NCBI GenBank assembly: GCA_020831805.1
Contig: JAFIFX010000010.1
Span: 1 to 64,000 of the forward strand
From: Planctomycetota bacterium
GTDB lineage: Bacteria; Planctomycetota; Phycisphaerae; Phycisphaerales; UBA1924
Length of the DNA: 64,000 bases
Direction: 5' to 3'
The position numbers and the translations under genes were made by a program. Below are positions 13,170-51,397 of this stretch, one piece after another (position 1 is the first letter of the stretch; each line of letters begins with the position of its first letter). The notes under the pieces are model-generated. The model did no database searches. It had not been told where the DNA came from and worked only from the letters and a program-made list of their open reading frames with translations.

Positions 13170-13420
13170 GTTTTGAAGCCGCAGCGGTTTCCGCTGGATG
13201 GGCTGCCGGCGGGGTCGGGCGGTCGCGGGCTTGGCCCCAGCCTGGCGAGGGGTGCGTGGCGGGTGTTCGCGGTGCGATTCAGCGGTCCGGGCGGCGGGAC
13301 TTTCGCGGGCCCGCGACCTACCCTTCCGACCCCCTGTCCGAGCGGGCGGGGGCCTTTCGGACCGCATGAAACAACCGATGCCCGTGTCACGCGACGGCGT
13401 GCGGGGGCGTGGAGCCAGCC

Positions 13421-14995
<1,575 letters not shown>

Positions 14996-19780: not shown

Positions 19781-21430
19781 ATGTGTTTGAAGCAGAGTCG
19801 GTTCGCAGTGTTGGCAGTGTTGGTGTGCATGGTTCAGGTTGCTTGGACACAGGAGTGCGAGTGGGAAACGTTAGGCCAGGGGGTTAACGGTGATGTCTTT
19901 GTCCTAGGGGTGTTCGATTATGGGTCGGGTCCAGCGATTTATGCTGGGGGAAACTTCACGCAAGCCGGCGGTAGCCCCGCAAGTCGCATTGCACGCTGGG
20001 ACGGGGAATCTTGGTCACCATTGGGTGCGGGGATGAGTGCAGGCACGGTCTATGCATTAGCAGTTTTCGATGACGGCACGGGTCCAGCTTTGTATGCGGG
20101 TGGCGAGTTTACTGTCGCCAGCGGTCAGGTCGTTAACTACATCGCGAAATGGGATGGCAGCAACTGGTCGCCTCTGACTGGGAGTTTAGGTACGGGTACG
20201 AACGGCCGTGTGAAAGCATTGACAGTCTTCGACGACGGCACCGGCGCAGCTTTGTACGCTGGGGGTGTGTTTGCTCTCGCTGGTGGGCAGGTGGTAAGTC
20301 GCATCGCCAAATGGGATGGCACAGACTGGTCACCATTGTTCGGGCCTTCTGGCACGGGACTCAACGGCCTCGTCGAGGCCCTCACAGTCTTCGATGATGG
20401 CACGGGTGAGGGACTTTACGCCGGTGGTCTTTTTACTAGTGCTGGCGGGACGACAGTAAACCGTATTGCCAAGTGGGATGGTACAGATTGGACGCCCTTG
20501 ACTGGGCCAAATGGTACGGGTGTGAATAGCCAAGTTCTGGCAATGACAGTTTTCGATGATGGTACAGGTGAGGCCCTATATGTGGGCGGCTTCTTCCTTG
20601 CCGCCGGCGGGCAGACGGTTAACCGTATCGCGAAATGGGACGGTAGTAACTGGTCGCCGTTGATTGGACTCGGTAGTACTGGAGTGAGTGATGCAGTTCG
20701 GACTCTGACTGTATTCGATAATGGAGCGAGTAGAGCACTGTATGCAGGTGGTGCATTCTTTCTGGCTGGCGGGCAGACGGTTAATCGCATTGCTAAGTGG
20801 GACGGCGCGGCGTGGTCTGCCCTCACTGATTCCGTTGGGACCGGAGTAAATGGCTTGGTTGAGGCCCTCACGGTCCTGGGCAATGGAACCGATGCTAAAC
20901 TTTTTGTGGGTGGTCAGTTCACTACAGCTGCTGGACAAAACGCTAACCACATTGCAGCCTGGCGCTGCACAATCACCTGTAACCCTGCTCCTGCAATCGT
21001 AGTAGGGCCCCAGGACCAGGTGCTTCAAGCAGGTGACACACTCATCCTGCTTACCGGCACAGTTGGGCAACAGCCACTAATGCATCAGTGGTTTCACGAT
21101 GGGTTTGTGGTGATGAATGATGGTCGCATCTCAGGTGCTACCACGCCGACACTGATCGTGACCGAAGTTACGCCCGCAGATTCAGGTGTGTATGAACTTG
21201 TCGTCAGCGACAACTGCAGCGATAAAGTTTCAGCATCAGCGGTTGTGGCCGTTGAAGTACCATGTCACGCCGATCTCGACGACAACGGCGTGTTAAATTT
21301 TTTCGACATCGCCGCATTCCTTGCGTACTACCAGATCCAAGATCCCATCGCCGACTGGAACGGTGACGGACTATTCAACTTCTTCGACTTCGCAGCCTAT
21401 CTCGACGCGTTCAACGCGGGGTGCCCCTGA
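19781..21430 (+). CDS. seven-repeat beta-propeller-like protein with Ig-like domain and GC-type dockerin; lower GC than neighbours
   Basis: seven ~50-aa repeats xxVFDDGTGxALYAGGxFxxAGGQxVNRIAKWDGxxWSPL; Ig-like domain; dockerin ...NAGCP. Confidence 0.88.
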   Translation: MCLKQSRFAVLAVLVCMVQVAWTQECEWETLGQGVNGDVFVLGVFDYGSGPAIYAGGNFTQAGGSPASRIARWDGESWSPLGAGMSAGTVYALAVFDDGTGPALYAGGEFTVASGQVVNYIAKWDGSNWSPLTGSLGTGTNGRVKALTVFDDGTGAALYAGGVFALAGGQVVSRIAKWDGTDWSPLFGPSGTGLNGLVEALTVFDDGTGEGLYAGGLFTSAGGTTVNRIAKWDGTDWTPLTGPNGTGVNSQVLAMTVFDDGTGEALYVGGFFLAAGGQTVNRIAKWDGSNWSPLIGLGSTGVSDAVRTLTVFDNGASRALYAGGAFFLAGGQTVNRIAKWDGAAWSALTDSVGTGVNGLVEALTVLGNGTDAKLFVGGQFTTAAGQNANHIAAWRCTITCNPAPAIVVGPQDQVLQAGDTLILLTGTVGQQPLMHQWFHDGFVVMNDGRISGATTPTLIVTEVTPADSGVYELVVSDNCSDKVSASAVVAVEVPCHADLDDNGVLNFFDIAAFLAYYQIQDPIADWNGDGLFNFFDFAAYLDAFNAGCP

Positions 21431-24385: not shown

Positions 24386-25711
24386 ATGACCATTCGCACC
24401 CTCGGCGCCCTGGCGGGCGTCGCGTTGTCCGCCGCCGGTGTTGCCGCCGCCCCTGTCTGGTCGACCGACCTGGGCGATCCGGGCCTGAGCGGCTCGTATG
24501 TCGCCTCGTTCGCCGTGCATGATGACGGCTCCGGTGAGGCGTTGTACGCCACCGGCCAGTTCTCGATCCCCGGCGTGCCGGGCGGCTCGAACCTCGCCCG
24601 CTGGAACGGCAGCGCATGGGAGGCGGTCGGCGGCGGGCTGCAGGCGCAGTACTCCAACGCCATGGCCACCTTCCAGGGCGACCTGATCCTCGCGGGCTAC
24701 TTCGACACCGCCGGCAATGTCCCCGGCACGGCGAAGCTGGCGCGTTGGGACGGGCAGAACTGGAACAGCATGGACGCCCAGGCCGAGTCGTTCCTCAACT
24801 CGATGTGGGACATTGCGGTGCACGACGACGGCTCGGGTGAGGCGCTGTACATCGCGGGCAACTATGTCAATCTCAACGGGCAGACCGGCCTGGACCACAT
24901 CGCCCGCTGGGACGGGGAGAACTACACCGCCGTCGGCGGGACCATCGGTGGGGCCGTGCCGCTGATCGTGCTCGACATCCATTCCGCGGACCTGGGCGAC
25001 GGCGCGAAGCTGTACGCCGGGGGCCGGTTTCTGACCATCGGCGGCGTGCCCGCGCTGAACATCGCGGTGTGGGACGGGCAGGGCTGGTCGGACCTGGCCG
25101 GCGGGCTGACCCGTCCGTCCGGGTTCACGCAGGTGCTGCACATGGTCGACTGGGACGGCGATCTGTATGTCGGCGGGCGGTTCGAGATCGCCGGCGGCGC
25201 GCCGGTGTCACGGAACATCGCCCGCTGGGACGGCAGCGCGTGGCACTCCGTCGGCGCGGGCTTTGACGGGGATGTGCAGGAGCTGGCCGTGTTTGATGAC
25301 GGCAGCGGCGAGACGCTGTACGCCATGGGCAACTTCAACAACTCCGGCTCGACGCCCACCCCGCGCATCGCCAAGTGGAACGGCACGAGCTGGGAGGCTG
25401 TCGGGGCCGGCGCCAACGGCAATGTCTTCGGCGCGATCGTCTACGACCTGGGCGACGGCCCGGCTCTGCACATGGGCGGCGGGTTCAGCTCGGTGGACGG
25501 ACAGGTCTCCAACCGGGTCGTCTCGCTGCTGGCGGACGCCGGCTGCCCGGCGGACCTGACCGGCGACGGCCAGCTGAACTTCTTCGATGTGGCGGCGTTT
25601 CTTGATCTCTACAACGCGAGCGACCCCGGCGCGGACTGGAACAACGACGGGCTGATCAACTTCTTCGACCTGGCGGCGTATCTGGACGATTTCAACGCCG
25701 GCTGCCCGTGA
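24386..25711 (+). CDS. seven-repeat beta-propeller-like protein with GC-type dockerin
   Basis: RBS ggaggag; repeats LYAGGRFxxIGG..NIAxWDGxxWxxxG; dockerin ...NAGCP. Confidence 0.88.
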   Translation: MTIRTLGALAGVALSAAGVAAAPVWSTDLGDPGLSGSYVASFAVHDDGSGEALYATGQFSIPGVPGGSNLARWNGSAWEAVGGGLQAQYSNAMATFQGDLILAGYFDTAGNVPGTAKLARWDGQNWNSMDAQAESFLNSMWDIAVHDDGSGEALYIAGNYVNLNGQTGLDHIARWDGENYTAVGGTIGGAVPLIVLDIHSADLGDGAKLYAGGRFLTIGGVPALNIAVWDGQGWSDLAGGLTRPSGFTQVLHMVDWDGDLYVGGRFEIAGGAPVSRNIARWDGSAWHSVGAGFDGDVQELAVFDDGSGETLYAMGNFNNSGSTPTPRIAKWNGTSWEAVGAGANGNVFGAIVYDLGDGPALHMGGGFSSVDGQVSNRVVSLLADAGCPADLTGDGQLNFFDVAAFLDLYNASDPGADWNNDGLINFFDLAAYLDDFNAGCP

Positions 25712-25754
25712 TCTGGGCCGGCTGCCGCAGGAACATGCTGAACGGTCCCTTTGA

Positions 25755-25905: not shown

Positions 25906-28164
25906 ATGTTCAAACTCGGGAATCTGTCGCTGTACGCGGCGTTGCTGGCGGCGGTCGTGTTTTCCGGCGCGGCGTTCGGGCAGCCGGATCGTCTGCTGGA
26001 CACGCAAACCGGCTGGGGTTACCTCTACGGGGCGACGACCTCGCAGGTGAACGCGCTGGCGGCCAACAACCAGCGGGTGTTCAACATCGAACGGGTCGGC
26101 CCGAACAGCTACGACGCGGTCGCGGTGAGCAACTCGGGGCCGTACGCGGTCAGCGGGTCCCAGGTGACCTTCGCTCTCACGCAGACCGGGCTGAACTCGC
26201 TGATCAACGGCCAGAACCGGCGGATCATCGACCTGGAGGCGTACGACAACAACGGCGTGGAGAACTTCGCCGTGGTGTCGGTGCCCAACTCCGGCGCGAC
26301 GGCGGCGGGGTGGGGGTACCTTGTGCGGGCCAGCCAGTCGGACATCAACAGCTGGATCGCCAACTCGAACCCGCCGCTGCGACTGATCGATCTCGACACC
26401 TACCGGCTGGGCGGCACGAAGTACTACACCGCGGTGGCGGTGAACAACACCGGTTCCAACCAGGCCAACTGGTCGTACCACTGGGGGCGCACGGCGGCGC
26501 AGGTGACCGATCTGCTGACCGCGAACAACGCCCGCCTGGTGGACATCTCGATCGAGCGTCAGCCTTCGATCCTCAATCCCACGACGCTGTTCAATGTGAT
26601 CATGGTTCACAATGCGTCGGGCGCGGGCTGGTGGTACTCGAGCCTGAGTTCGGCGCAGGTGGACTCCCTGCTGAGCCAGAACGGGTCGCGCCTGACGGCC
26701 ATGACGCGGTACACCGACGCACTGGGTTTTACCCGGTTCGCCGTGGCCATGGTGGACAACATCAACCCGGAATCAAGGCGGGTCCGCGACATCATGACCG
26801 CGCGCTCGGAACTGAGTGATGATGATCAAGCCATCATCGGATTCCGGGCCAAGCAGGTCGGCGGTCCGGTGCTGACCAATCTGAACGATCAGTTCGCGTT
26901 TGAGCCGGCGAGCGCCATCAAGATCCTGCATAGCGCCCGCGCGATGCGCGGCGTCCAGCTCGGGCTCGAATCGCTCGACAGCCTCGTGTCGCTGAACACC
27001 ACGACGAACGTGAGTAACTCGTGCCCGTGGTCCGTGCCGGTCACATTCACGACATTGGAAACGACCATTCAAGAGACCATGCTCAACAGTTCCAACCACC
27101 ACACCGAGGCGCTGCTCCAGCGGTACGGTCGGGAAACACTCAACGCATTCGCATCCAGCTATGGCCTGACCAACACCTACCTGCACGAGAATCACACCAT
27201 CGGGTGCTGCGGTCCGACCGTGGCCGACTTCAACCGCCTGACCGCCAACGACGCGGTGCTGTTCTATGAGCGGATCGCGGATGGCACGATTCTCGACGAG
27301 TTCCACCGGTACGAGCTCTACCGACTCATGACAAGCCACATGGATGGTACCCGCGACCCATGGTTGAGCCAATTGGTGCGGGCGGAGGCGGCATCGACAA
27401 ACCTGTCATCAGGCGAGATCGAGGCATTCCTCGATGAACTCGAAGCGGCTGTGAAGAACGGCGGGTACTTCTGTGGTGGCACCCTCGGGAGGTATCGCAG
27501 CATCGCGGGGTGGATCCGGATCCCTTTCCGCTCTTCGGGCCCGTTATTCACCCCGTTCGCCCGGGAATACTCCACGGCCATGTTCCTTCACGGCGCTCGG
27601 CATGACACTTTTTATACTCACAATTGGATCGATAGGGTAAACTGGGAGCAGGTCCGGATCCCCATCCGCCAGGCGCTGCAGTCGTGGGACGCCGCCTGCG
27701 ATCCGGACGCGATCCTGAGCCATCCCCAGAGCATCTCCGTGCCGCAGGGCGGCGCCGCCCAGTTCGCCGCGACCCACACCACGCCGGTGGGCGGTCGGAC
27801 CTACCGCTGGCAGTACTTCAACGGTTTCTTCGCCGTGGACCTGTTCGACGACGGCCGGATCTCCGGCGCGGACACCCCGAACCTGACCATCAACGGCGTC
27901 ACGACCGCGGACATGGGCCAGTACCGCCTGGTCATCACCAAGCCCTGCGGCGAGACCGAGTCGAACCCGGCTTTCCTGACCGTGACCGCGTCCTGCCTGG
28001 CGGACTTCGACGGCAACGGCGTGCTGAACTTCTTCGACTTCGCGGCGTTCATCGCGGCGTACAACGCCCAGGACCCCGCGGCCGATCTGGCGGCGCCGTT
28101 CGGGGTGCTGAACTTCTTCGATGTCAGTGCGTTCGTGAGCCTGTACAACCAGGGCTGCCCGTAA
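25906..28164 (+). CDS. tandem-repeat (BTRD1/polyglycine-hydrolase-like) plus beta-lactamase-fold serine hydrolase-like domain, Ig-like domain and GC-type dockerin
   Basis: repeats xxVxNxGxxxxxWxYxxGxTxxQVxxLxxxNxxRLVDI; FEPASAIKILH (SxxK-like); ends ...NQGCP. Confidence 0.75.
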   Translation: MFKLGNLSLYAALLAAVVFSGAAFGQPDRLLDTQTGWGYLYGATTSQVNALAANNQRVFNIERVGPNSYDAVAVSNSGPYAVSGSQVTFALTQTGLNSLINGQNRRIIDLEAYDNNGVENFAVVSVPNSGATAAGWGYLVRASQSDINSWIANSNPPLRLIDLDTYRLGGTKYYTAVAVNNTGSNQANWSYHWGRTAAQVTDLLTANNARLVDISIERQPSILNPTTLFNVIMVHNASGAGWWYSSLSSAQVDSLLSQNGSRLTAMTRYTDALGFTRFAVAMVDNINPESRRVRDIMTARSELSDDDQAIIGFRAKQVGGPVLTNLNDQFAFEPASAIKILHSARAMRGVQLGLESLDSLVSLNTTTNVSNSCPWSVPVTFTTLETTIQETMLNSSNHHTEALLQRYGRETLNAFASSYGLTNTYLHENHTIGCCGPTVADFNRLTANDAVLFYERIADGTILDEFHRYELYRLMTSHMDGTRDPWLSQLVRAEAASTNLSSGEIEAFLDELEAAVKNGGYFCGGTLGRYRSIAGWIRIPFRSSGPLFTPFAREYSTAMFLHGARHDTFYTHNWIDRVNWEQVRIPIRQALQSWDAACDPDAILSHPQSISVPQGGAAQFAATHTTPVGGRTYRWQYFNGFFAVDLFDDGRISGADTPNLTINGVTTADMGQYRLVITKPCGETESNPAFLTVTASCLADFDGNGVLNFFDFAAFIAAYNAQDPAADLAAPFGVLNFFDVSAFVSLYNQGCP

Positions 28165-28397: not shown

Positions 28398-30647
28398 ATG
28401 ATGCTGGTTCGTGCGCACGCCGCCTGGGCGGCGATTGTCGTGGTGCTCGGTCTGATGTCGGGGTGGGCATCGGCCCAGGATGATCGGTGGCTCGACACAC
28501 CGACGGGTTGGACCTGGTACTTTGGTGTTCCGCAATCCACGGTCAGCGGGTTGGCGGGTCAGGGCCAGCGTGTGTTCAACATTGAGCGTGTGGGCGGCAA
28601 CACCTACGACGCGGTCGCGGTGAGCAACTCGGGGCCGTACGCGGTCAGCGGGTCGCAGATCCACTTTGCCCAGACGCTGAGCAATGTCGCCGATCTCGTC
28701 AATAACCAGAACCGCCGGATCATCGACCTTGAGATCATGGACATCGGCGCCGGGGTTGAGTCGTTCACGCTCATCACTGTCCCGAACAGCGGCGCGACCG
28801 CGGCGGGGTGGGGCTGGCAGTTCCGCCGCTCCCAGCAGCAGATCATCGATTGGGTGAACAACTCGAACCCGCCGATCCGGCTGATCGACCTGGATTCCTA
28901 TATATACAACGGGGTGCGCGTGTACTCGGCGGTGGGCGTTCACAACACCGGCTCGAACGCGATGGGCTGGTGGTACTACTTCAACCGGACGCCTTCCCAG
29001 GTGACGAGCCTGCTGCAGCAGAACAACGCGCGGCTGGTCAGCATCTCGATGAACAACAACCCGAGCATCACCGACCCGAACCCCCGGTTCAATGTGGTGA
29101 TGGTCGCCAACAACCCGGGCGGCGGGTGGTGGTATTTCGGCCTGACCCCGGCGCAGATCGAGGCGTTGTACCAGCAGAACGGCGCCAGGCTGACCTGCCT
29201 GACGCGGTACACGGACTTCGCCGGCCAGACGCGTTTCGCGGTGGCGATGGTCGACAACGTCAACCAGGAGACCCGGCGGGTGCGCAACATGATCACCTCG
29301 ACGATCCCCAGCGGGACCTACGGCTTCCGGGCCAAGCAGGTCGGCGGCCCGGTGATCTCGAGCCTGCACGCGGACTTCGACTTCGAGCCGGCGAGCATGA
29401 TCAAGATCCTGCACACCTCCTTCGCCATGCGCCGGGTCGACATCGGTCTGGAGTCGCTGAGTGATCCGGTCACCCTGAACACAACCACGAATAGCAACAC
29501 TTCGTGCCCGTTCAGCACGACGGTGACGACGCCCACGCTGCAGACGACGATCCGCGAGACCATGCGGGCCAGCTCGAACCACCACACCGAGGCCCTGCGT
29601 CAGCGGTACGGGACCACGGTGCTGAACCTGTACGCGGGGTTCCAGGGGCTGTCCAACACGGAGCTGAACCACACGCTCGGGTGTCTCTGCTCGTCGCTGC
29701 CGAACTTCAACCGCTTCTCCGCGCGGGACGCGGTCTCGCTCTACGAACTGATCTCGGACGGCACGCTGATGAGCGAGTCGAGCAAGCAGACGCTGTACAA
29801 CCTGATGCTCAACTACTCGGTGCACGGCAACGCGCGTCTGACGAACATCATTAACGACGAGGCGGCCAGCACGAACCTGACCGCGTCCGAGGTCGCCTCC
29901 TTCCGCGCGGCCGTCCGGGCGGCGTGGAAGGGCGGCAGCTACACCTGCCTGCCCGTGAACGACCCGTCCAGGCGCTGGCGGACCGAGGGCGGCTGGGCCC
30001 GCCTCCCCTTCAAGGCCGGCGCCCCCAACTACACGCCGTTCGACCGCGAGTACGCCGTGGCGATCTTCCTGCATGATTCCGCCAGCCCCCAATCGGTCAC
30101 GAACCTGATCTATGACTACACATGGGAGTTGCTCCGGGTGCCGATCCGCCAGGCGCTCCAGTCGTGGGACGCCGCGTGCGCCCCGGACTCGATCCTGTCG
30201 CATCCGGCCGGGACCACCGCGCCGGTGGGCGGGAGCGCGCAGTTCAGTGTGTCGACCCTGACTGGCGCTGGCAGCAGCACCTACCGCTGGCAGCGGCTGG
30301 TCAACGGCGTCTACCAGAACATCTTCGACTCGGCGGGCCGGTTCTCCGGGGCGACCACGCCGACGCTGACCATCAGCAACATCCAGCAGTCCGACGACAC
30401 GCTCTACCGCCTGTTCATCACCAAGCCGTGCGGCAACACCATCTCGAACTCGGCCCGCCTGGTGGTCACCCCCGGCTGCGTGGCGGACTTCGACGGCAAC
30501 GGCGTGCTGAACTTCTTCGACTTCGCGGCGTTCATCGCGGCGTACAACGCCCAGGACCCCGCGGCCGACCTGGCGCCGCCGTTCGGGGTCTGGAACTTCT
30601 TTGATGTGGCCGCGTTCATCGACGCGTACAACGCTGGCTGCCCATAG
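28398..30647 (+). CDS. paralogue of 25906-28164: tandem-repeat plus beta-lactamase-fold domain, Ig-like, GC-type dockerin
   Basis: same architecture; FEPASMIKILHTSFAM, SSNHHTEALRQRYG shared with upstream gene; ends NAGCP. Confidence 0.77.
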   Translation: MMLVRAHAAWAAIVVVLGLMSGWASAQDDRWLDTPTGWTWYFGVPQSTVSGLAGQGQRVFNIERVGGNTYDAVAVSNSGPYAVSGSQIHFAQTLSNVADLVNNQNRRIIDLEIMDIGAGVESFTLITVPNSGATAAGWGWQFRRSQQQIIDWVNNSNPPIRLIDLDSYIYNGVRVYSAVGVHNTGSNAMGWWYYFNRTPSQVTSLLQQNNARLVSISMNNNPSITDPNPRFNVVMVANNPGGGWWYFGLTPAQIEALYQQNGARLTCLTRYTDFAGQTRFAVAMVDNVNQETRRVRNMITSTIPSGTYGFRAKQVGGPVISSLHADFDFEPASMIKILHTSFAMRRVDIGLESLSDPVTLNTTTNSNTSCPFSTTVTTPTLQTTIRETMRASSNHHTEALRQRYGTTVLNLYAGFQGLSNTELNHTLGCLCSSLPNFNRFSARDAVSLYELISDGTLMSESSKQTLYNLMLNYSVHGNARLTNIINDEAASTNLTASEVASFRAAVRAAWKGGSYTCLPVNDPSRRWRTEGGWARLPFKAGAPNYTPFDREYAVAIFLHDSASPQSVTNLIYDYTWELLRVPIRQALQSWDAACAPDSILSHPAGTTAPVGGSAQFSVSTLTGAGSSTYRWQRLVNGVYQNIFDSAGRFSGATTPTLTISNIQQSDDTLYRLFITKPCGNTISNSARLVVTPGCVADFDGNGVLNFFDFAAFIAAYNAQDPAADLAPPFGVWNFFDVAAFIDAYNAGCP

Positions 30648-31738: not shown

Positions 31739-33187
31739 ATGAGCAGCGAGCGGAATCGGTGGGCTATTTCCCCAGCGGCGATCGTCGCGGCGGCGGCAGG
31801 GATGATCGCGGCGCCCACCTTCGGGCAGGCGGCGATCGAGGTCAGCGCGGACGGCCGGCAGGTCGCCTCGCCCAGCATCGCGATCACCGAGGGCTGGGGC
31901 TGGAAGGCCCGCGGTGCATCCGTGCCCTACCCGACCGAGCCGGACATCGTCGTCAACCTGCGACGCCAGATCGGCGGGCTCGCCATCGCCGATGTGAACG
32001 GCAACGGGCACAACGACCTCATCGCCGTCTGCTACATCTCCCAGAGCTTCCCGCCTTACGAGAACTGGCAGGACATGATCTTCTTCGGCAACGGCAACGG
32101 CATCGAGACCACGCCCGGCTGGCTCTCCGACACGCAGACGCACACCGGCGATGTCCTCGTCGGCGACCTGAACAACAACGGCTGGCCCGACATCGTCACC
32201 ATCCATGGCGGTGGTCTGCGGCGCGACACCGTCCGTGTCTACGCCACCGGTCCCGGCGGCGTGCCCACCTCGCCGACCTATGTGTCCAACACCGCCGCCA
32301 CGGGCTGGGGTACCGCCGGCGTGCTGGCCGACTTCAACCAGAACGGGTTCCTGGATCTGGTCACCAGCAATCAGGGCCTCTCGCCCGACCCGTTCCGCCC
32401 GCTGCTGATGTTCCGCAACACCGGCGGCGTGCTGTCCACCGCGGCCGTCTGGCAGTCCGCCACCCCGGCCGTCCAGAACGGGCTCGACGCGGTCGACCTG
32501 ACCGGCAACGGCTACCCAGACCTCGGCTCGGCCAGGTGGGCCAACTTCGAGAGCGGGATCTATCTCAACACCGACGGCGAGCTGGCGACTTCGATGGCCG
32601 CCACCGTTGGCAACACCGGCACCGACCGCGGCGTGGCCTTCGCCGATTTCACGGGCGACGGCCAGTACGAGATGGCCGTGGGCGGCAACCCGAGCAAGGT
32701 CTACACCTACTCTGGCGGCCAGCTCAGCCTGCTCCAGCAGCAGAACCCGCCCTTCAGCGGGCCGCAGGACTTCAAGGCCTTCGATGTGAATGGCGACGGG
32801 TGGCCCGACCTGGTCGAGATCCATTTCTCCGACGGTCGCGCGCACATCTACCTCAACCGCGACGGCGTGCTCGACACCGAGCCGTCCTGGACCTACAACG
32901 CCCCCGAGGTCGGCACGGCGCTGGCCTTCGGCGATCTCAACGGCAACGGCCTGCCCGACCTCGTCCTCGGCTACGCCGGCAACACCAGCATCCGCGTGTT
33001 CTTCGCCATCCCCCAGGACTGCCCGGCGGACCTGACCGGCGACGGGAACCTGAACTTCTTCGATGTCGCGGCCTACCTGGACCTGTACAACGCGGGTGAC
33101 CCGGCGGCGGACTGGAACGGGGACGGGCTGATCAACTTCTTCGACCTGGCGGCGTATCTGGACGATTTCAACGCCGGCTGCCCCTGA
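31739..33187 (+). CDS. FG-GAP/VCBS repeat protein with GC-type dockerin
   Basis: IADVNGNGHNDLIAV, VGDLNNNGWPDIVTI, FDVNGDGWPDLVEI; dockerin ...NAGCP. Confidence 0.9.
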   Translation: MSSERNRWAISPAAIVAAAAGMIAAPTFGQAAIEVSADGRQVASPSIAITEGWGWKARGASVPYPTEPDIVVNLRRQIGGLAIADVNGNGHNDLIAVCYISQSFPPYENWQDMIFFGNGNGIETTPGWLSDTQTHTGDVLVGDLNNNGWPDIVTIHGGGLRRDTVRVYATGPGGVPTSPTYVSNTAATGWGTAGVLADFNQNGFLDLVTSNQGLSPDPFRPLLMFRNTGGVLSTAAVWQSATPAVQNGLDAVDLTGNGYPDLGSARWANFESGIYLNTDGELATSMAATVGNTGTDRGVAFADFTGDGQYEMAVGGNPSKVYTYSGGQLSLLQQQNPPFSGPQDFKAFDVNGDGWPDLVEIHFSDGRAHIYLNRDGVLDTEPSWTYNAPEVGTALAFGDLNGNGLPDLVLGYAGNTSIRVFFAIPQDCPADLTGDGNLNFFDVAAYLDLYNAGDPAADWNGDGLINFFDLAAYLDDFNAGCP

Positions 33188-40553: not shown

Positions 40554-42146
40554 ATGAGACGGACGATTTCTCGGGCGGCGTCGGCCGCGTTGTTATTGGT
40601 GGTCGGCGGGGCCCAGGCCCAGTGGACCGACGACCCTGGATTGAACACCCCGGTCGTGGTGAAGGCAGGGGACCAGACCGTCGTGAAGACCGGCGTCGGA
40701 CCCGACGGCTCGTCGTGGACCGGCTGGTTCGATTTCGCGCCGGGGGGCATCCAGGTCCGTGTCCAGCGGCTCGACGCGGACGGGAACCAGACCTTCGACC
40801 CCGAGGGCCTGCTCGTCTCGGCCAACCCGCAGAACACCTCGACGGTCGACTGGGACCTGCGCGTCGACGATGACGGCAACTGCATGCTGGCCTTCACGGA
40901 CATTCGCGCCGGGAGCGATCTGGATGTGTACGCGTACCTGATCGCGCCCGATGGCCAGATGCTCTGGGGCGCCGACGGCGTGACGGTGTCCGACAACGAC
41001 GCCTTCGAGGCCGACCCGCGGATCATCCGGCTCGCGGGCGGCGACTACGCGGTGGTCTGGCCGCGGTTCCAGACCAACCCGGGGCTGGTGATGCAGCGGA
41101 TCAGCCCGGCGGGCGTCAAGGCGTTCGCGGGCGACGGGGTGATGCTCTCCGCCGTCGGCACCGAGGCCCCGGCGTTTGTCGAGATCGAGCCGACGAGCGA
41201 CGGCGGGTTCATCGCCGCCTGGATCCGCAACACCGCGACCTTCATGAGCCCGCGCCATGTGTGGGCGCAGAAGTTCGACGCCGACGGCGCAGCGCAGTGG
41301 GGGACCAGCCCGATCGTGGTTTCTGATGCGACCAGCGTGCCGATCGCCCACCGGCCGCGTGTGATCAACGACGGCTCGGACGGCGCGGTGATCGCGTGGC
41401 ATGACACGCGGACCGGCAGCTTCAACGCCTTCGTGCAGCGGATCAGCCCGGGCGGATCGGTGCTCTTCGCGGCCAACGGCCAGCCCGCCTCGGACGAGGC
41501 CGGCCGCCAGCAGCTCGACCCGGCCATCGCGATGGCCCCGTCCGGCGACATCATGATGATCTTCCGCAACCTCGACGGGGCCCAGTCCCAGCAGAGCATG
41601 AACGCCCAGCGGTTCGGCGGCGCGACCGGCGCACGCATGCTCGGGAACAACGGCGTCGCCCTGACCCCGTTCGACGGGCAGTTCAAGGGCCCGCCCCGCG
41701 CCGTCGCGCACGCGGACGGCATCGCCGGCGTCTTCGACCGCCAGCCGACGCTGGGCAACACCGCCGGCGTGCTGGAGATGTACATCGTCGACGAGGCCGG
41801 TGACGCGCTGGGCGGCGGGCCGATCACGGTCTCCGGCGTGCTCAGCAACAAGGGACGGCTCAACCTGAACCGCTGGGCCGACGGGCGCATGCTCGCCACA
41901 TGGTCCGACCGGCGCAACGGGCCCGAGGATATCTACGCCCAGGCGGTCAACCCCGACGGCACGCTCGGCGCGGGCGGCTGCCCGGCGGACCTGACCGGTG
42001 ACGGCCAGCTGAACTTCTTCGATGTCGCGGCCTACCTGGACCTGTACAACGCGGGCGACCCGGCGGCGGACTGGAACGGGGACGGGCTGATCAACTTCTT
42101 CGACCTGGCGGCGTACCTGGACGATTTCAACGCCGGCTGCCCGTAA
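40554..42146 (+). CDS. secreted repeat protein (propeller-like) with GC-type dockerin
   Basis: signal peptide; QRISPAGVKAFAGDGVMLS..., WHDTRTGSFNAFVQRISPGG repeats; dockerin ...NAGCP. Confidence 0.88.
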   Translation: MRRTISRAASAALLLVVGGAQAQWTDDPGLNTPVVVKAGDQTVVKTGVGPDGSSWTGWFDFAPGGIQVRVQRLDADGNQTFDPEGLLVSANPQNTSTVDWDLRVDDDGNCMLAFTDIRAGSDLDVYAYLIAPDGQMLWGADGVTVSDNDAFEADPRIIRLAGGDYAVVWPRFQTNPGLVMQRISPAGVKAFAGDGVMLSAVGTEAPAFVEIEPTSDGGFIAAWIRNTATFMSPRHVWAQKFDADGAAQWGTSPIVVSDATSVPIAHRPRVINDGSDGAVIAWHDTRTGSFNAFVQRISPGGSVLFAANGQPASDEAGRQQLDPAIAMAPSGDIMMIFRNLDGAQSQQSMNAQRFGGATGARMLGNNGVALTPFDGQFKGPPRAVAHADGIAGVFDRQPTLGNTAGVLEMYIVDEAGDALGGGPITVSGVLSNKGRLNLNRWADGRMLATWSDRRNGPEDIYAQAVNPDGTLGAGGCPADLTGDGQLNFFDVAAYLDLYNAGDPAADWNGDGLINFFDLAAYLDDFNAGCP

Positions 42147-42206: not shown

Positions 42207-42352
42207 ATGCGCACAGGCTGCGTACAGGAATCAAATCATTCGAAAATCTCCTGATTTTGGGTCAGGCCCGGGGCCGTGTTCGTGTATGGTCATGGTGTTC
42301 CATGGTCGTCGGGACCGTGGCGCGATCGGTGTTGGAACGAGGACAGGTGACG

Positions 42353-44422
42353 ATGCGGTTCAAGAATCGGTTCGGTGTGTCTGCGATGATGTTGGTGATC
42401 TGTGCGGGCGGCCTGCACGGGGCGACGGACGCGGGGTCCGCGGCGGACCCGGTTGCTCCCGCCCGGCTGCCCGCGGGCACGGCCCCGCTGCCGGACCGGA
42501 CCGCGGAGCGGGTGGGCGCGTTCAGCGCGGCCCGCATGTGGAACGAGGAGCTGCTGGCGGCGGTGCGGCGTGATCGGCCGCGTCCTCCGGTCGTTTCGAG
42601 GGATCTGTTCCATGTCTCCGCCGCGATGTATGACGCGTGGGCGGCCTACGACGCCACGGCCACCGGCGTCTTCCGGACGGAGTGGGCCGAGGCCGCGGAC
42701 ACCGCGGCGGCTCGCCGGGAGGCGGTCAGCTACGCCGCCTACCGGCTGATCGCGCACCGCTACGCCGACTCGCCTGGCGCGCCCGTGACGCTGCCCTCGC
42801 TGGACAGCCTGATGGATCTGCTCGGCTACGACCCCGCGGTCACGACCCGCACCGGGCCCAGCCCCGCGGCGGTGGGCAACCGCATCGCCGCCGCGATCAT
42901 CGCGCTGACGGCCGAGGACGGCTCCAACGAGGCGGGCAACTACGCCGACACCTCCGGCTACGCGCCGGTGAACGGCCCGCTGACGGTCGATGTGCCCGGC
43001 GTGGGCGTCCTCAACGACATCAACCGATGGCAGCCGCTGATCGTTCCGGGCTTCAGCGACCAGCAAGTCTTTCTGGCCCCCCACTGGGGTGCGGTGCGCC
43101 CGTTCGCGATCGAGCGTCCGTCGCCCGGCGAGCTGTACCTGGACCCCGGCCCGCCGCCCGTGATCGGCGGCGACGGCGACGCCGACCTCCGCGCCGATCT
43201 GCTCGAGGTCATCCGCGCTTCGGCGCAGCTCGATCCCGACGACGGCGTGATGATCAACATCTCGCCCTCGGCCGTGGGCAACAACACCCTCGGTTCGCAG
43301 GACGGGCAGGGCCACAAGACCAACCCTTCGACCGGGCAGCCCTACCCGGACAACATGGTGCTCCGCGGCGACTGGGGCCGCGTGCTCGCCGAGTTCTGGG
43401 CCGACGGCCCGCTCTCCTCGACGCCTCCGGGCCACTGGAACGAGATCGCCAACGAGGTGGTCGACACGCCCGGCTTCGAGCGACGCTTCGGCGGCGACGG
43501 GCCCGAACTCGACTCGCTGGAGTGGGATGTCAAGATGTATCTCGCCCTGAACGGCGCGGTCCACGACGCGGCCATCGCCACCTGGGAGGTCAAGGCCCAC
43601 TACGACTTCACCCGCCCGCTGTCGCTGATCCGCGGCATGGGCGCGCTCGGCCAGTCATCCGATCCCGACGGCGCGTCCTACCACCCGGACGGGTTGCCGC
43701 TGGAGGAAGGCCTGGTCGAGTTGATCACGCCGGCGTCCGCCGCGCCCGGCGAGCGCCACGAGCACCTGGCCGACCACATCGGCGAGATCGCCCTGTTTGC
43801 CTGGCAGGGTCATCCCGCCGATCCAACGGCCGAGTACGGCGGCTGCGGCTGGGTCCGCGCGGTCGAGTGGCTGCCGTACCAGCAGTTCGACTTCGTCACG
43901 CCGCCGTTCGCGGGCTACACCTCGGGCCACAGCGGCTTCAGCCGCGCCGCCGCCGAGGTGCTCACCCAGCTCACCGGCGACGCCTTCTTCCCCGGGGGGC
44001 TCGGCGAGTTCATGGCGGCCACCGGCTCGGACGGCTTCGACCTCGGCTTCGAGTTCGGGCCGCTGCAGGATGTCCCGCTTCAGTGGGCCACCTACTACGA
44101 CGCGGCCGACGAGGCGGGGATCTCGCGCATCTACGGCGGGATCCACCCGGCCTTCGACGATTTCCCGGGCCGGGTCATCGGCTCGAACGCAGGCATCGCG
44201 GCGTTCACGAGGGCCTCGGCGTCCTTCAGCGGCAGCGCGGCGTCGTTGTGCCCGGCGGACTTCGCCGAACCGTTCGGGGTGCTGGACTTCTTCGATGTCG
44301 CCGCGTTCATCGACGCGTTCGTGGCGGGCAGCCCCGCGGCGGACCTGGCCGAGCCGTTCGGCGTGCTGGATTTCGCGGACATTGCGGCGTTCTTTGACGC
44401 GTACAACGCCGGCTGCCCCTGA
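42353..44422 (+). CDS. vanadium-dependent haloperoxidase/PAP2-like protein with dockerin in which both loops are the AEPFGV variant
   Basis: WNEELLAAVRRDRPRPPVVSRDLFHVSAAMYDAWAAYD; PPFAGYTSGHSGFSRAAAEVLTQLTG; C-terminus ...NAGCP. Confidence 0.85.
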   Translation: MRFKNRFGVSAMMLVICAGGLHGATDAGSAADPVAPARLPAGTAPLPDRTAERVGAFSAARMWNEELLAAVRRDRPRPPVVSRDLFHVSAAMYDAWAAYDATATGVFRTEWAEAADTAAARREAVSYAAYRLIAHRYADSPGAPVTLPSLDSLMDLLGYDPAVTTRTGPSPAAVGNRIAAAIIALTAEDGSNEAGNYADTSGYAPVNGPLTVDVPGVGVLNDINRWQPLIVPGFSDQQVFLAPHWGAVRPFAIERPSPGELYLDPGPPPVIGGDGDADLRADLLEVIRASAQLDPDDGVMINISPSAVGNNTLGSQDGQGHKTNPSTGQPYPDNMVLRGDWGRVLAEFWADGPLSSTPPGHWNEIANEVVDTPGFERRFGGDGPELDSLEWDVKMYLALNGAVHDAAIATWEVKAHYDFTRPLSLIRGMGALGQSSDPDGASYHPDGLPLEEGLVELITPASAAPGERHEHLADHIGEIALFAWQGHPADPTAEYGGCGWVRAVEWLPYQQFDFVTPPFAGYTSGHSGFSRAAAEVLTQLTGDAFFPGGLGEFMAATGSDGFDLGFEFGPLQDVPLQWATYYDAADEAGISRIYGGIHPAFDDFPGRVIGSNAGIAAFTRASASFSGSAASLCPADFAEPFGVLDFFDVAAFIDAFVAGSPAADLAEPFGVLDFADIAAFFDAYNAGCP

Positions 44423-44497
44423 GTGCGGATGGGCCAAAGACCGGAGGATTTTTCTCTCGGATTTATTGTTTGTGGAGGCAGTCATCGATTAGACTGA

Positions 44498-44523
44498 CTG
44501 CACGCCCTGCCGCGGCGTGCAGA
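44498..44523. repeat. hairpin ctgcacgcc-ctgccgc-ggcgtgcag in the 5' region upstream of 44736
   Basis: inverted repeat read directly. Confidence 0.5.
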
Positions 44524-44735
44524 GTCTCCAGGTGATACATCGATGCGTAGATTACGAGGTACCCAGCACACCGCGATTTTGACGGTTCATCGCCTCGAGG
44601 TCGTGGTCCGCAACCGCGCCGCCCACGCACATTTGGGGGACATCGCGAACCCCCGTTCTCCGCACTGTGTCCAGCTTGCTTGTACGCATCCGGGCCACGC
44701 ACGGTATTCACCATAACCACAGCAGGACATCAATC

Positions 44736-47078
44736 ATGCACGAAATCCGATTCTTGGCACTCGCGGTATTGCTTTTGCTCAAGGGAGTCGCGACCGCTCA
44801 GGAAGTTCGGTTTTCGACAACGTTCGAAGAGATCGATTTCGCCGCGAATTTAATCGCCATTGATACCAACGGAAACGGCCGGGACGAGTTGGTCGGCTGG
44901 GCGATCAACCCGCTGCGTTACGCGGTGCTGAGCTTCGATCCGGGGGGCGGTATCACGGTCTCGCCGACGCAGGTTATCGGCGGCGACGGAGCGGTCCGTG
45001 TGAGCACCGGCGATCTCAACTCGGACGGGCTTGATGATCTCGTCTTCCTGCCACTCTTCGAGTCGCAGATCATCGTGCTTCTCAGCAACGGCGACACGAC
45101 ATTCTCGAATGCGCCGGGTTCACCCGTGCCGGCGACGGATGTCGCGCGCGCGATCCGTGTGGTCGATGCGGATCTTGATGGATTCAAGGACATCCTTCTC
45201 GCCACCAGCAACTCGATCATTTTTTACAAAGGCCGGAACGATGGTGGGTTCGATTTTCCGACTGCTTTTCATACGGGCATACCAACGGTACGCGACATGG
45301 TCTTTGCGGATTTTCGGGGCGACGGGAACCCCGTGCTGGCTGTCATAAGCGCGAACCGGAGCATTCACTTTTTCGAGCGGGACGGCCAGACCTTTACGGA
45401 GTATCAGGTTCTCCCCGCCGGAGACTGGCTGTTGCGGGCTGAAGCGATCGATGTTGACAACGCAGGGTCCATACGGCTCGTGATCGCTGCAGAAAACAAT
45501 CAGCGCGTCATCACCGTCGGTTGGGACGAAAACGCGCAAGAGTATTCCGTTCTGCACCGATCGACCCGGCTTAATTCCGGCACGACAAGCGTTGCGTTCG
45601 GGGATCTGAACGGAAATGGTATCGATGATGTCGTGTACGGCGTTAAGGATGTCGACGCGCTCCGTGTGTTCTACGCCGACCCGGATGGGTCCGGGCTTTA
45701 TACAGACTCAGGAACCGAGCTCGGCCGGTTCGAGAGGTTGAGCGGTGTGGCCGTGGCCGACATCGATGGCAATGGTGTCAATGAGCTGATCTTGGCGGGC
45801 TTCAAGAAAACGGGGGTGATGGTTCTGCGACCGGACGCGACATCCGGCCTCCGGGCGGCGACCTACTCCAGTCCCAACCCGAGCAGCTTCGGTCGGCTTC
45901 TGGCCTATGAGCAACCCGACGGGACACCCGCTGTTTACGCCATGCCCGAGGATTTCTCGCGTGCCGTTCACAGGCTGACCTTCTCCGAGATTGACGGTCA
46001 GTTCGAGATTTCTGCCGAGCAGGTCGACGGCGCGGATTTCGTCACATTGCCGACCGAGGTTGCCACCGGAGATTTGAATAACGACGGGCTTGTGGACCTC
46101 TACAGTCTCAGCACCGTCAACACCACGCGTCGCATCCAGTGGCAGCTCGCCACGCCCGAAGGCGGGTTTGGCATCCGGCTGAACCGCCAGACGGAAGCGG
46201 TCGTGTTCAATCTGACGGTCGCCGACTTCAACGGCGACGGATACGATGATGCGGCGGTCTTGGACCAGTCTGGTAACGTGCGTATCTTTTTTGCGCGGGA
46301 TGGTGGTTCGCTCGATCCTCCGACCATCGTTCCCATGACCACCGATGGATTTTCGCTCAGGTCGCTGCTGGCCAAGGATCTCGACGGCGACGGGTGGGTT
46401 GATCTGGCCTGTTTCGCACGTCCCACCAGCCAGACTTCAGTCCTGATCATTCGCTATGGACGCGGAGATGGGACCTTCGACCCGCCGGTGTCGTTCTCCA
46501 GCAACGTCGGCGTCGGCCAGACGCTCCCCGGATGGATTGATGCGGCTGATTTCAACTCGAACGGACAGCTGGACATCATCGCCGCGCAGGCCAAATCCTC
46601 GCACCTCTTTCTGTCAACGGGTATCCGAACCTATGGGCCCGTGGTGCTCGTGTCGGAAGGTCCCTCTTTGTTCAGAGTCGAAGCGGTGGATCTGAACGGC
46701 GACGGCCGGCCCGAGATCGCCACGGTCTTCGATGGCTACACCGAGATCGTGGAAGTCACGCCAGACGGCGCCATCGGGCCGCGTCGGGGCTTGTATCAGA
46801 ACCCTCCGGTCGGGTCCGTTTTCGTTGATGTCAACGCTGACGGGTTACCTGATCTTGTGTCCGCTTCAAAGTTCGATACCGCCGTGTCATTCAATGTTTC
46901 GCACGCTGCATGCCTCCCTGATCTGAATGGCGATGGGGTTGTCAACTTCTTTGATCTCGCGATTTATATTGCCCTGTTCAACGCCGGTGACCCCGACGCT
47001 GATCTCAACAACGACGGGCAACTCAACTTCTTCGACCTCGCGGCCTATCTGACCCTGTTTAACCAGGGCTGCCCCTGA
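44736..47078 (+). CDS. FG-GAP/VCBS repeat protein with GC-type dockerin
   Basis: signal peptide MHEIRFLALAVLLLLKGVATA; VVDADLDGFKDILLAT, FGDLNGNGIDDVVYG; ends NQGCP. Confidence 0.9.
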   Translation: MHEIRFLALAVLLLLKGVATAQEVRFSTTFEEIDFAANLIAIDTNGNGRDELVGWAINPLRYAVLSFDPGGGITVSPTQVIGGDGAVRVSTGDLNSDGLDDLVFLPLFESQIIVLLSNGDTTFSNAPGSPVPATDVARAIRVVDADLDGFKDILLATSNSIIFYKGRNDGGFDFPTAFHTGIPTVRDMVFADFRGDGNPVLAVISANRSIHFFERDGQTFTEYQVLPAGDWLLRAEAIDVDNAGSIRLVIAAENNQRVITVGWDENAQEYSVLHRSTRLNSGTTSVAFGDLNGNGIDDVVYGVKDVDALRVFYADPDGSGLYTDSGTELGRFERLSGVAVADIDGNGVNELILAGFKKTGVMVLRPDATSGLRAATYSSPNPSSFGRLLAYEQPDGTPAVYAMPEDFSRAVHRLTFSEIDGQFEISAEQVDGADFVTLPTEVATGDLNNDGLVDLYSLSTVNTTRRIQWQLATPEGGFGIRLNRQTEAVVFNLTVADFNGDGYDDAAVLDQSGNVRIFFARDGGSLDPPTIVPMTTDGFSLRSLLAKDLDGDGWVDLACFARPTSQTSVLIIRYGRGDGTFDPPVSFSSNVGVGQTLPGWIDAADFNSNGQLDIIAAQAKSSHLFLSTGIRTYGPVVLVSEGPSLFRVEAVDLNGDGRPEIATVFDGYTEIVEVTPDGAIGPRRGLYQNPPVGSVFVDVNADGLPDLVSASKFDTAVSFNVSHAACLPDLNGDGVVNFFDLAIYIALFNAGDPDADLNNDGQLNFFDLAAYLTLFNQGCP

Positions 47079-47115
47079 TCGCCAGCCCGCCATCGCGGCC
47101 CGCCGGGCTCGCTGC

Positions 47116-47442
47116 GGATCCCCACAACTGACGGGCAGTGATCCGGCTGCCCGCCCAGCTCGCCGACAGGTTCTGCCCCCTCGTTCGATGGAGGCTTGTG
47201 CTGCGTCACCGGCGACCCGTTCTTCTCCGGCGGGCTGGGCGCGTTCCTTGCTGCCACCAGGCCCGACGGCTTCGATCTGCGCTTTGAGTTCGGACCGCTG
47301 CAGGATGTCCCGCTTCAGTGGGCCACCTACTACGACGTGGCCGACGAGGCGGGGATCTCGCGCATCTCCGGCGGTATCCACACGGCCTTTTTGACGATTT
47401 TCCGGGCCGGCTCATCGGCTCGAACGCAGGCATCGCGGCGTA
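47116..47442 (+). pseudogene. chimeric pseudogene scar: 5' end of the NAD-epimerase locus (47116-47214) fused to a 3' fragment of the haloperoxidase gene (47206-47442)
   Basis: 47116-47214 aligns with 50343-50443 and 47206-47442 aligns with 43971-44205; the copies share tcaccggcg at the join; frameshifts in both halves. Confidence 0.85.
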
Positions 47443-47642
47443 CTTCCACCCGTCCAACAGCGGACATCCCTGACCGACAGCCCTCGGCGTCGGCGCCTGT
47501 CATCTGTGCAAACAACAAGAATTGCACGACACCGCTGAACTTTTCGCGCTGTTTTACTTGACACGCGCCGTCGCTTTCGGCAGGATGAAAACAGCTTCTC
47601 AATCGCGAGCACATCAACGAGCGCACGCTCAAAGGACGGAGG

Positions 47643-48668
47643 ATGATTCGGATGTCTCTGACCCGATTGGCTGTATTCGTTGCCCTTGTGTTCTGCGGCG
47701 GGATGGTGGTCGACGCCCAAGCCTCGGCGGAATCGCAGTTTACATACCAGGGACGGCTGGACATGCACGCCCAGCCGTACACCGGCACGGCGGATTTCCA
47801 GTTCACGCTCTGGGATGCTCCCAGCGGCGGGAGCCAGATCGGCTCCGTGAACGCCAAGAACGGCGTCGAGATCGAGGACGGGCTGTTCACGGCCGAACTG
47901 GATTTCGGCGCCGAGCCGCTGCAGGGCACGCGGTATCTGCAGATCCGCGTCCGGGCGCCGAGCGGGTCGGGCGATTTTTTCACCTTCCCCGACCGCACAC
48001 GCATCAGCGCCTCGCCCTTCTCCATCCGGACGCGCGGCCTGTATGTGAACGAGGCCGGCAACCGGGTGGCGATCGGGACGCAGGACCCCACCCACACCCT
48101 CCATGTGACGGGTTCATCGCCTTCGACGGCGTTGTTCCAATCGTCGAGCCCCGACGGATCCAGCATGAACCTCAGCAGCACCGGTCCCGGCGGGCGGGGC
48201 TGGATGTTTACCTCGTCCGCATCGAGCACGCCCGGGGGCGCGGGCAAGCTGCTGATCTATCCCGCAGGTACGACGAACTTCGGCGACAACGCCCTGACGG
48301 TGCACCCCTCCGGCGTTCTCGGCGTGCTCACCACCAGCCCGCAGGACTCGATCCACATCGGCAGCGGCGCGTTGCGTTTCCCCGACGGATCCCGTCAGTT
48401 CAGCGCGTACGCGCCGGTCATCGCCGATGTCCCGGTCGTGAGTTTCGTTGTACCCGGCAATGGTCAGAACACGCTTAACTCTATTGTGCCAGGCGCGCAG
48501 CCGGGCATGACGGTCGTCGTCACGCCCCCGTACGACCTCTGGCCGTTCCACTCGATCGGCTTCGCCCGAGTAATCGCGCCCGACACGGTGCGATTCTCGG
48601 TCGTCAGCAACGCCGCCGGCGACCGTACCTATAGCGCGAACACATGGCGTTTCATGGTTTTCCCCTGA
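47643..48668 (+). CDS. secreted tail-fibre-like protein, no dockerin
   Basis: FTYQGRLDMHAQPYTGTADFQFTLWDAPSGG...NRVAIGTQDPTHTLHVTGSS... Confidence 0.72.
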   Translation: MIRMSLTRLAVFVALVFCGGMVVDAQASAESQFTYQGRLDMHAQPYTGTADFQFTLWDAPSGGSQIGSVNAKNGVEIEDGLFTAELDFGAEPLQGTRYLQIRVRAPSGSGDFFTFPDRTRISASPFSIRTRGLYVNEAGNRVAIGTQDPTHTLHVTGSSPSTALFQSSSPDGSSMNLSSTGPGGRGWMFTSSASSTPGGAGKLLIYPAGTTNFGDNALTVHPSGVLGVLTTSPQDSIHIGSGALRFPDGSRQFSAYAPVIADVPVVSFVVPGNGQNTLNSIVPGAQPGMTVVVTPPYDLWPFHSIGFARVIAPDTVRFSVVSNAAGDRTYSANTWRFMVFP

Positions 48669-48761
48669 TGCGCTTGCTCAACGCACACGCGGCCCGGCGT
48701 TCGATCCTCTGACTCGATCGGACCTGACTGATTCAACCTCCAGCAAAGAAAGGCACATCGA

Positions 48762-49796
48762 ATGCGTCCCTCTCGGAACATCCTGGCGGTCTTTGCGATC
48801 TTGATGGGCGGTCTGACCCTGGCCCAGGCCCAGTCCGTAACTTCATCGGAGTTCACCTACCAGGGCCGGCTGGATTTCCAGGGCCAGCCCTACATCGGGG
48901 GGGCGGACTATCGGTTCTCGCTCTGGAGCGCGGCCACGGGCGGCGAGCAGATCGGATCCACCGCGCAGAAATCCGGTGTGCAGGTGCAGGACGGGCTGTT
49001 CACCGTCAACCTGGATTTTGGCCCCAACGCGGTCGGCCAGAGCCGCTGGCTTGAGATCGCGGTGCGCACCCCGGCCTGGGACGGTTCCGGAACTGAACCG
49101 GACTTCTTCACGCTCAGCCAGCGCCAGCCCATCACGAACTCGCCGTACTCGGTCCACACCCGCGGCATATTCGTCAACGAGGCCGGGGACCGGGTTGCGA
49201 TCGGCACCCAGAGCCCCACACACACCCTGCATGTAGCGGGTTCATCAAAGAACACGGCGTTGCTCAGTTCTTCAAGCCCGTCCGGCACGACGCTCCAACT
49301 GAGCAACACCAGCGCGGGTGGGCGATTCTGGTCGCTCACCTCGGGCGGTTCTTTAACATCCGAAGGCGCCGGAAGGCTGCACTTCGGCTTTGGCTCGAAC
49401 CCCGGCGCAGGCAGCACCATCTTCACCCTTTCCCCGCTGGGTGGGATCGGGATTCTCACATCGAACCCGCAGGACCCGATTCACCTCGGCGCGGGTGCGA
49501 TGCGTTTCCCGGATGGTTCCCGCCAGTCCACCGCCTACGCGCCGATCGTGGCGAATGTCGCGTTAGGAAGTTTCACTGTGCCGAGCGGCGGCGAGAACAC
49601 CCGGACTTTCGCCGTAACCGGCGCTCAGCCGGGCATGATGGTCGTCGTCACGCCCCCGTATGACCTCTGGCCGTTCCACTCGATCGGTTACGCCCGGGTG
49701 ATCTCGGAGAACCTGGTGCGATTCTCGATCGTCAGCGGCGGGGGGGGCCAGCGAACCTACAGCGCGAACACATGGCGCGTCACCGTCATCCCGTAA
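48762..49796 (+). CDS. paralogue of 47643-48668, secreted tail-fibre-like protein, no dockerin
   Basis: FTYQGRLDFQGQPYIGGADYRFSLWSAATGG...DRVAIGTQSPTHTLHVAGSS; shared C-terminus QPGMxVVVTPPYDLWPFHSIG. Confidence 0.72.
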   Translation: MRPSRNILAVFAILMGGLTLAQAQSVTSSEFTYQGRLDFQGQPYIGGADYRFSLWSAATGGEQIGSTAQKSGVQVQDGLFTVNLDFGPNAVGQSRWLEIAVRTPAWDGSGTEPDFFTLSQRQPITNSPYSVHTRGIFVNEAGDRVAIGTQSPTHTLHVAGSSKNTALLSSSSPSGTTLQLSNTSAGGRFWSLTSGGSLTSEGAGRLHFGFGSNPGAGSTIFTLSPLGGIGILTSNPQDPIHLGAGAMRFPDGSRQSTAYAPIVANVALGSFTVPSGGENTRTFAVTGAQPGMMVVVTPPYDLWPFHSIGYARVISENLVRFSIVSGGGGQRTYSANTWRVTVIP

Positions 49797-49858
49797 ACCA
49801 CGACGCGCTGCCGGAACGATCCCCGGCCGCGCACGCCCCGCAGGCCAAGGACCACACC

Positions 49859-50293
49859 ATGCCCCAGCACCGCTTCTCATTCGTCCAGGCCCTTGCCGCC
49901 CTGACGGCGGCGGCCTCCGGATCGCTCGCCATGCAGCAGGGCGGGCCGGATTACTCGATCCCGTGGTACAACATCGGCTCCGGTGGCGGCACCAGCTCCG
50001 CTGGGCCGTACACCCTCTCCGGCACCATCGGCCAGCACGAGGCGTCCGGCCCCTCCGAGGCCGGGCCGTACACGCTGACCGGCGGCTTCTGGGCGGGCGT
50101 CGCGCCCTCCAGCCCGGGCTGCTCGCCCGCCGACCTGGCCGAGCCGTTCGGCGTGCTCAACTTCTTCGATGTCGCCGCGTACATCGCCCTCTACAACGCC
50201 GGCGATCCGGCGGCCGACTTCACCGGTGACGGGCAGCTCAACTTCTTCGATGTCGCCGAGTTCATCGCGATTTACAACCAGGGCTGCCCGTGA
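49859..50293 (+). CDS. short secreted protein (144 aa) with GC-type dockerin
   Basis: YTLSGTIGQHEASGPSEAGPYTLTGGFWAG followed by SPADLAEPFGVLNFFDVAAYIALYNAGDPAADFTGDGQLNFFDVAEFIAIYNQGCP. Confidence 0.85.
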   Translation: MPQHRFSFVQALAALTAAASGSLAMQQGGPDYSIPWYNIGSGGGTSSAGPYTLSGTIGQHEASGPSEAGPYTLTGGFWAGVAPSSPGCSPADLAEPFGVLNFFDVAAYIALYNAGDPAADFTGDGQLNFFDVAEFIAIYNQGCP

Positions 50294-50365
50294 TCCGCCG
50301 CGCGGGCTGATTTGGTCGGGCTCTTCCCAGCGTGTGCGGGCCGGATCCCCTAAACTGACGGGCCA

Positions 50366-51397
50366 GTGACCCGCCTGCCCGCCCAGCTCGCCGACCGGCT
50401 CCGCCCCTCGTTCGATGGGCGCTTGTGCTGCGTCACCGGCGGCGCGGGCTTCATCGGCGGGCACCTGGCCGAGACCCTCGTCGGCCTCGGCGCCCGGGTG
50501 GCGGTCATCGATGACCTGTCCAACGCGAGTGCGGCCCATGTCGCCGGCCTGATCGACCAGGCCCCGGACCGGGTCCGCTTCGTCCACGCCAGCATCCTCG
50601 AGCGGTCCGCGCTCGACGAGGCCATGGACGGCTGCGAGCTGGCCTTCCACCTGGCCGCCCTGGGCTCGGTTCCGCGCTCGGTCGAAGACCCGACGCGCAC
50701 CTGGCTGGTCAACGCCACCGGCACCATGCGGGTGCTCGAGTCGGCCCACCGCTCGGGCGCGAGGCGGCTGGTCTATTCCGCCTCAAGCAGCGCGTACGGC
50801 GACAACCCCGACCTGCCCAAGCGCGAGACCATGGCCCCCGAGCCGATGTCGCCCTACGCCGCCGCCAAGCTGGCCGGCGAGTCGCTTTGCCGCGCGTGGT
50901 CGGCCTGCTACGGGCTGGACACGGCGTGCCTGCGCTACTTCAACATCTTCGGCCCGCGCCAGGCCGCCGACTCGGCCTACGCCGCCGTCGTCCCCGCGTT
51001 CATCAAGGCCCTGGCCGGGGATCGCGCCCCGACGGTCTACGGCGACGGCGGACAGACCCGTGATTTCACGCATGTCTCTAACGCCGTCGCGGCCAACCTG
51101 CTCGCCGCCGCCAGCCCCCGCGACCTTGCCGGGGGCGTGGCCAATATCGGCGCGGGCGTGCGCACCAGCGTCAACGACCTGGCCGCCCGGCTCGCGGCCC
51201 TGTGCGACCGCCCGGACCTGACCCCCGAGCACCAGCCCGCCCGCGTCGGTGAGGTCCGTGATTCGGTCGCCGACATCTCGGTCGCCCGGGACCTGATCGG
51301 CTACGAGCCGGTCACCGACCTGGAAACGGGCCTGGCCCAGACCGTCGACTGGTACCGAGGGCGGACCGCCGCCGACGCCGGCGAGGGCCGCCGATGA
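50366..51397 (+). CDS. NAD-dependent epimerase/dehydratase (SDR family, UDP-glucose-4-epimerase-like)
   Basis: VTGGAGFIGGHLAETL, YSASSSAYGDNPDLPKRE...SPYAAAKLAGE (YxxxK), RYFNIFGPRQ; GTG start. Confidence 0.93.
   Translation: MTRLPAQLADRLRPSFDGRLCCVTGGAGFIGGHLAETLVGLGARVAVIDDLSNASAAHVAGLIDQAPDRVRFVHASILERSALDEAMDGCELAFHLAALGSVPRSVEDPTRTWLVNATGTMRVLESAHRSGARRLVYSASSSAYGDNPDLPKRETMAPEPMSPYAAAKLAGESLCRAWSACYGLDTACLRYFNIFGPRQAADSAYAAVVPAFIKALAGDRAPTVYGDGGQTRDFTHVSNAVAANLLAAASPRDLAGGVANIGAGVRTSVNDLAARLAALCDRPDLTPEHQPARVGEVRDSVADISVARDLIGYEPVTDLETGLAQTVDWYRGRTAADAGEGRR

Follow-up and report, generated by a model that had tools for sequence, protein, structure and literature searches.

In Salmonella, the fusion of a gene to a new promoter by tandem duplication is a classical finding (his duplications, Anderson and Roth 1978, as cited in PMC11111574). 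In E. coli, tandem duplications bordered by 9-bp GC-rich microhomologies have been produced experimentally (PMC11111574), and the joins of lac amplifications arising in starving cells carried microhomology in 40 of the 40 cases sequenced (PMC3161906). Both microhomology-joined tandem duplications and fusion relics are already known in bacteria; our literature search on the term "chimeric pseudogene" in bacteria retrieved nothing relevant. Here we describe a roughly 330-base dead segment in a 64,000-nucleotide stretch of planctomycete DNA (the window), in which the start of an epimerase gene is fused to the end of a haloperoxidase-like gene, between intact copies of the two.

Both parents, the relic and the DNA between them are read on the forward strand. 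The left-hand parent, H (42347-44422), encodes a PAP2-type protein with a C-terminal GC-type dockerin. It shares with vanadium-dependent haloperoxidases the three active-site motifs K-x6-RP, (P)SGH and SR-x5-H, present as KAHYDFTRP, TSGH and SRIYGGIH (the proline of PSGH is a threonine in H), as well as matches to the solved structures 9ptr, 9l8x and 4cit. From these motifs and matches, H is predicted to be vanadium-haloperoxidase-like; the fold is also found in acid phosphatases. Its nearest named full-length homologue that we found belongs to the planctomycete Phycisphaeraceae isolate DLM2.Bin55 (73%), which matches genome G011 of that family, so that the window is taken to come from a Phycisphaeraceae-like bacterium. 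In two genus mates the relatives of H, situated on other contigs, show 50-54% identity. The right-hand parent, E (50366-51397), is an intact NAD-dependent epimerase/dehydratase gene, of the sugar epimerase type. No second full-length H or E was found in the organism's own genome.

The first part of the relic (47115-47214) derives from E. In a whole-genome search it is an 86% copy of 50342-50441, comprising the promoter, the GTG start and the first ~24 codons; a query of 47080-47500 against the own genome matches 50342-50462 at the same identity (E=8.1e-33). A first-pass annotation, made from the letters alone, had likewise seen here a degenerate copy of the epimerase promoter and first codons. 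It had also matched 47206-47442 to the haloperoxidase gene, and indeed 47206-47441 aligns with H 43971-44204 at 88.6-89% over 236 nt (E=1.7e-82), long identical block included. The same relationships were recovered by repeat search as families D2, D5, D7 and D9. The only other match to the relic in the own genome is a weak one, to an H paralogue on contig C27; at 69%, compared with 89% for H, this paralogue was rejected as the source of the haloperoxidase part.

Before its indels the fusion was in frame, with some 24 epimerase codons followed by H from TG/D onward. Of the one frameshift proposed for each side, the extra C on the epimerase side is present as described, while the insertion relative to H consists of two nucleotides (TT near 47388-47389) rather than a single T. 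A 1-nt deletion lies just 5' of the copied GTG start, and the copied promoter is altered at TAAACT, a motif that all three members of the genus retain in their intact epimerase genes. Of the three motifs in H, K-x6-RP and SGH are missing from the relic, which differs from vanadium-dependent haloperoxidases in keeping the third only; judged by its motifs, it cannot be such an enzyme. A check of related genomes found no intact version spanning this region, and both genus mates lack H at the locus. With recognisable parents, a disrupted frame and no intact orthologue found, the segment is confirmed, at the level of sequence, as a real and well-preserved dead chimeric pseudogene of both parents, as the first reading had it, its similarity to them being far beyond chance.

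The two parts meet at the 9-nt TCACCGGCG (47206-47214). Between 42.0 and 51.4 kb this string occurs exactly three times, in H (43971), in the relic (47206) and in E (50433), in agreement with the microhomology junction that had been suggested. By composition, E and H have 55 nine-mers in common, so the match alone is unconvincing, and breakpoints of this sort are available. For nine bases to be common to both sides of a random junction of such composition is nevertheless rare, of the order of 1 in 10,000 by our own estimate.

Along the strand the order is H, then the E start joined to the H end, then E, with the intact copies flanking the join. A head-to-tail duplication from inside H to inside E predicts precisely this join. 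In our view the relic probably marks where an old direct tandem duplication was joined. The duplicated unit would have begun within H, at 43971, and ended within E, at 50433. At the common TCACCGGCG, either illegitimate recombination or template switching would have brought the E start up against the H end, with H still complete to the left and E still complete to the right. The resulting frame, about 24 epimerase codons plus a haloperoxidase tail, would then have decayed through frameshifts and promoter mutation. The similar divergence of the two relic parts (86% and 89%) supports this origin. The annotation had left open whether DNA between the two loci was copied or deleted: the order of the parts is that expected at a tandem-duplication join. 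One simple deletion starting from H and E as they now stand was rejected, since it would yield the reverse join, the H start followed by the E end.

A duplication of this kind should leave homologous DNA on either side of the join as two spacer copies. The left spacer is taken up by F (44667-47078), an FG-GAP repeat protein gene with a dockerin and a GC content of about 59-60%; the right spacer (47643-50293) holds a gene for a small dockerin protein (49772-50293) alongside two tandem paralogues (47643-48668 and 48762-49796). By blastn with 7-nt words, the two spacers share no homology beyond their dockerin ends, and searching the rest of the genome for the spacer ends gave no additional copy. 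At least one spacer must consequently have been replaced, and because the two are not homologous today, we infer the duplication from the strand, the order of the parts and their join, on the assumption that spacer DNA was lost afterwards. From the join it is 3235 nt to the H breakpoint and 3227 nt to the E breakpoint, nearly midway, and under the duplication these distances would have been equal at birth; with unrelated DNA now on its two sides, this near-equality cannot be leaned on and may be a coincidence.

The outer edge of the relic is sharp. Epimerase similarity begins abruptly at CGGATCCCC (47115 in the relic, 50342 at E) and on the left stops 36 nt past the F stop codon. Upstream of CGGATCCCC, the intergenic DNA at the two places aligns poorly, with a 12-nt gap, until two dockerin gene ends are reached, which are members of a repeated family anyway. 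This edge counts against the duplication, as does the need to assume at least one full spacer replacement, and no intermediate state is preserved in the relatives examined.

Such replacement would have taken place in an array of secreted-protein genes, many with a C-terminal GC-type dockerin (NF041540), that extends between atpA (13409-14995) and E. In two genus mates, G001 (L049) and G002 (L071), the same atpA-to-E interval holds different dockerin genes, which makes spacer turnover normal here. From these comparisons the array (15078-50293) is read as a variable region with conserved borders and rapid turnover by duplication and loss. The duplicated spacers would thus have been replaced or lost, leaving about 330 nt around the join.

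In keeping with a duplication origin of the relic, the array contains other direct duplications, 26070-28163 with 28565-30646 and 47732-48649 with 48845-49777. The former is a second, older duplication of about 2.5 kb at 68-75% identity. The latter falls within the tandem paralogues of the right spacer, whose products are 58% identical in amino acids and match no Pfam or NCBIfam entry at the thresholds applied; among 163 genomes of the family, 39 carry relatives of theirs, and both genus mates lack them. Elsewhere, the dockerin-coding 3' ends at 33019-33183 and 41978-42142 (also 25540-25713) are 90-96% identical over about 170 nt and the remainders of the genes differ, as if the ends had been exchanged by gene conversion. 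At 20054-20930, where there is no clear long gene, lie direct repeats of 66-69% identity that recur about every 162 nt. Finally, the FG-GAP gene F and its upstream region (44423-47080) have a GC content of 57-61%, against 70-74% in neighbouring DNA, H and E included, which suggests a later arrival.

The divergence of the haloperoxidase-derived part from H is uneven, with ~80 nt at 21% followed by ~154 nt at 5% (best split, permutation p=0.007). In stretch A (47206-47285), 17 of 80 sites differ from H, predominantly at third codon positions and with changes in both lineages; stretch B (47286-47441) differs at 8 of 154 sites, in addition to the TT insertion. When changes are polarised against the homologue in genome G011, those in the first 90 nt fall 7 times to H and 8 times to the relic, and in the last 144 nt all 5 fall to the relic and none to H; the homologue in G059 gives the same picture. 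Among the homologues compared, none matches stretch A better than H does. The sites are few, and the pattern is suggestive of an old join whose right part was later overwritten by exchange with H (gene conversion), after which the relic drifted.

The behaviour of stretch A also bears on how the join arose. A larger duplication could first have produced a complete E followed by another complete H, with a later deletion at the 9-nt match fusing the E start to the H end. Order, strand and join would be the same, reached in two steps, and changes on both H and the relic, mostly at third codon positions, would fit a second H once under selection; this route requires one extra event, however, and the own genome holds no second full H or E, so that we consider it unlikely. 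The shortness of the relic, its sharp outer edges and its unrelated flanks are what one would expect of a different history, in which the DNA broke between F and the paralogues to its right and repair by microhomology-mediated template switching brought in two short patches copied from the nearby E and H. In E. coli amplification studies, complex joins containing sequence inserted from close by are reported (PMC3161906). Such an insertion leaves order and orientations free, so that the arrangement observed is one of eight possible, and it does not account for the midpoint spacing; it appears rather improbable.

Far less credible is that the segment is a working small gene, a misassembly or a chance similarity. 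An open frame of 121 codons does exist at 47196-47561, but no family matches it, two catalytic motifs are missing from it, and from the TT insertion onward it no longer follows the frame of H. The 55 common nine-mers could invite an explanation by chance, which the two alignments exclude (E=1.7e-82 and 8e-33). An assembly artefact is unlikely because the relic is 11-14% diverged from its parents and lies mid-contig. Very doubtful too is the idea that selection once favoured the duplication for bringing another haloperoxidase tail under control of the epimerase promoter, or that the relic persists as a gene-conversion partner of H; were the latter true, a dead fragment would still be shaping a living gene.

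The tandem duplication thus remains our preferred reading. Like the fusions at tandem-duplication joins in Salmonella his and at the 9-bp joins in E. coli (PMC11111574), the relic consists of the start of the downstream gene and the end of the upstream gene on the same strand, flanked by intact copies, and it shares with the E. coli duplications a 9-bp GC-rich match at the join. It differs from them in that its join is old and decayed and its spacers are unrecognisable as copies: the relic fits this class on order, strand and join and departs from it in the homology of the spacers, and we do not claim membership as proven. With lac amplification in E. coli it has in common the short match at the join, for which template switching is the explanation in lac (PMC3161906); there the events are recent and selected and the amplified units intact, whereas the mechanism cannot be read from the relic. 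Current views of bacterial genome rearrangement are unchanged by it. What the locus adds is a natural microhomology join in a planctomycete that can be read from sequence, inside a dockerin gene array whose turnover can be studied within the conserved borders formed by atpA and the epimerase. Altogether, set beside the duplications described in Salmonella and E. coli, the relic is ordinary in kind, and its history is unusually legible.
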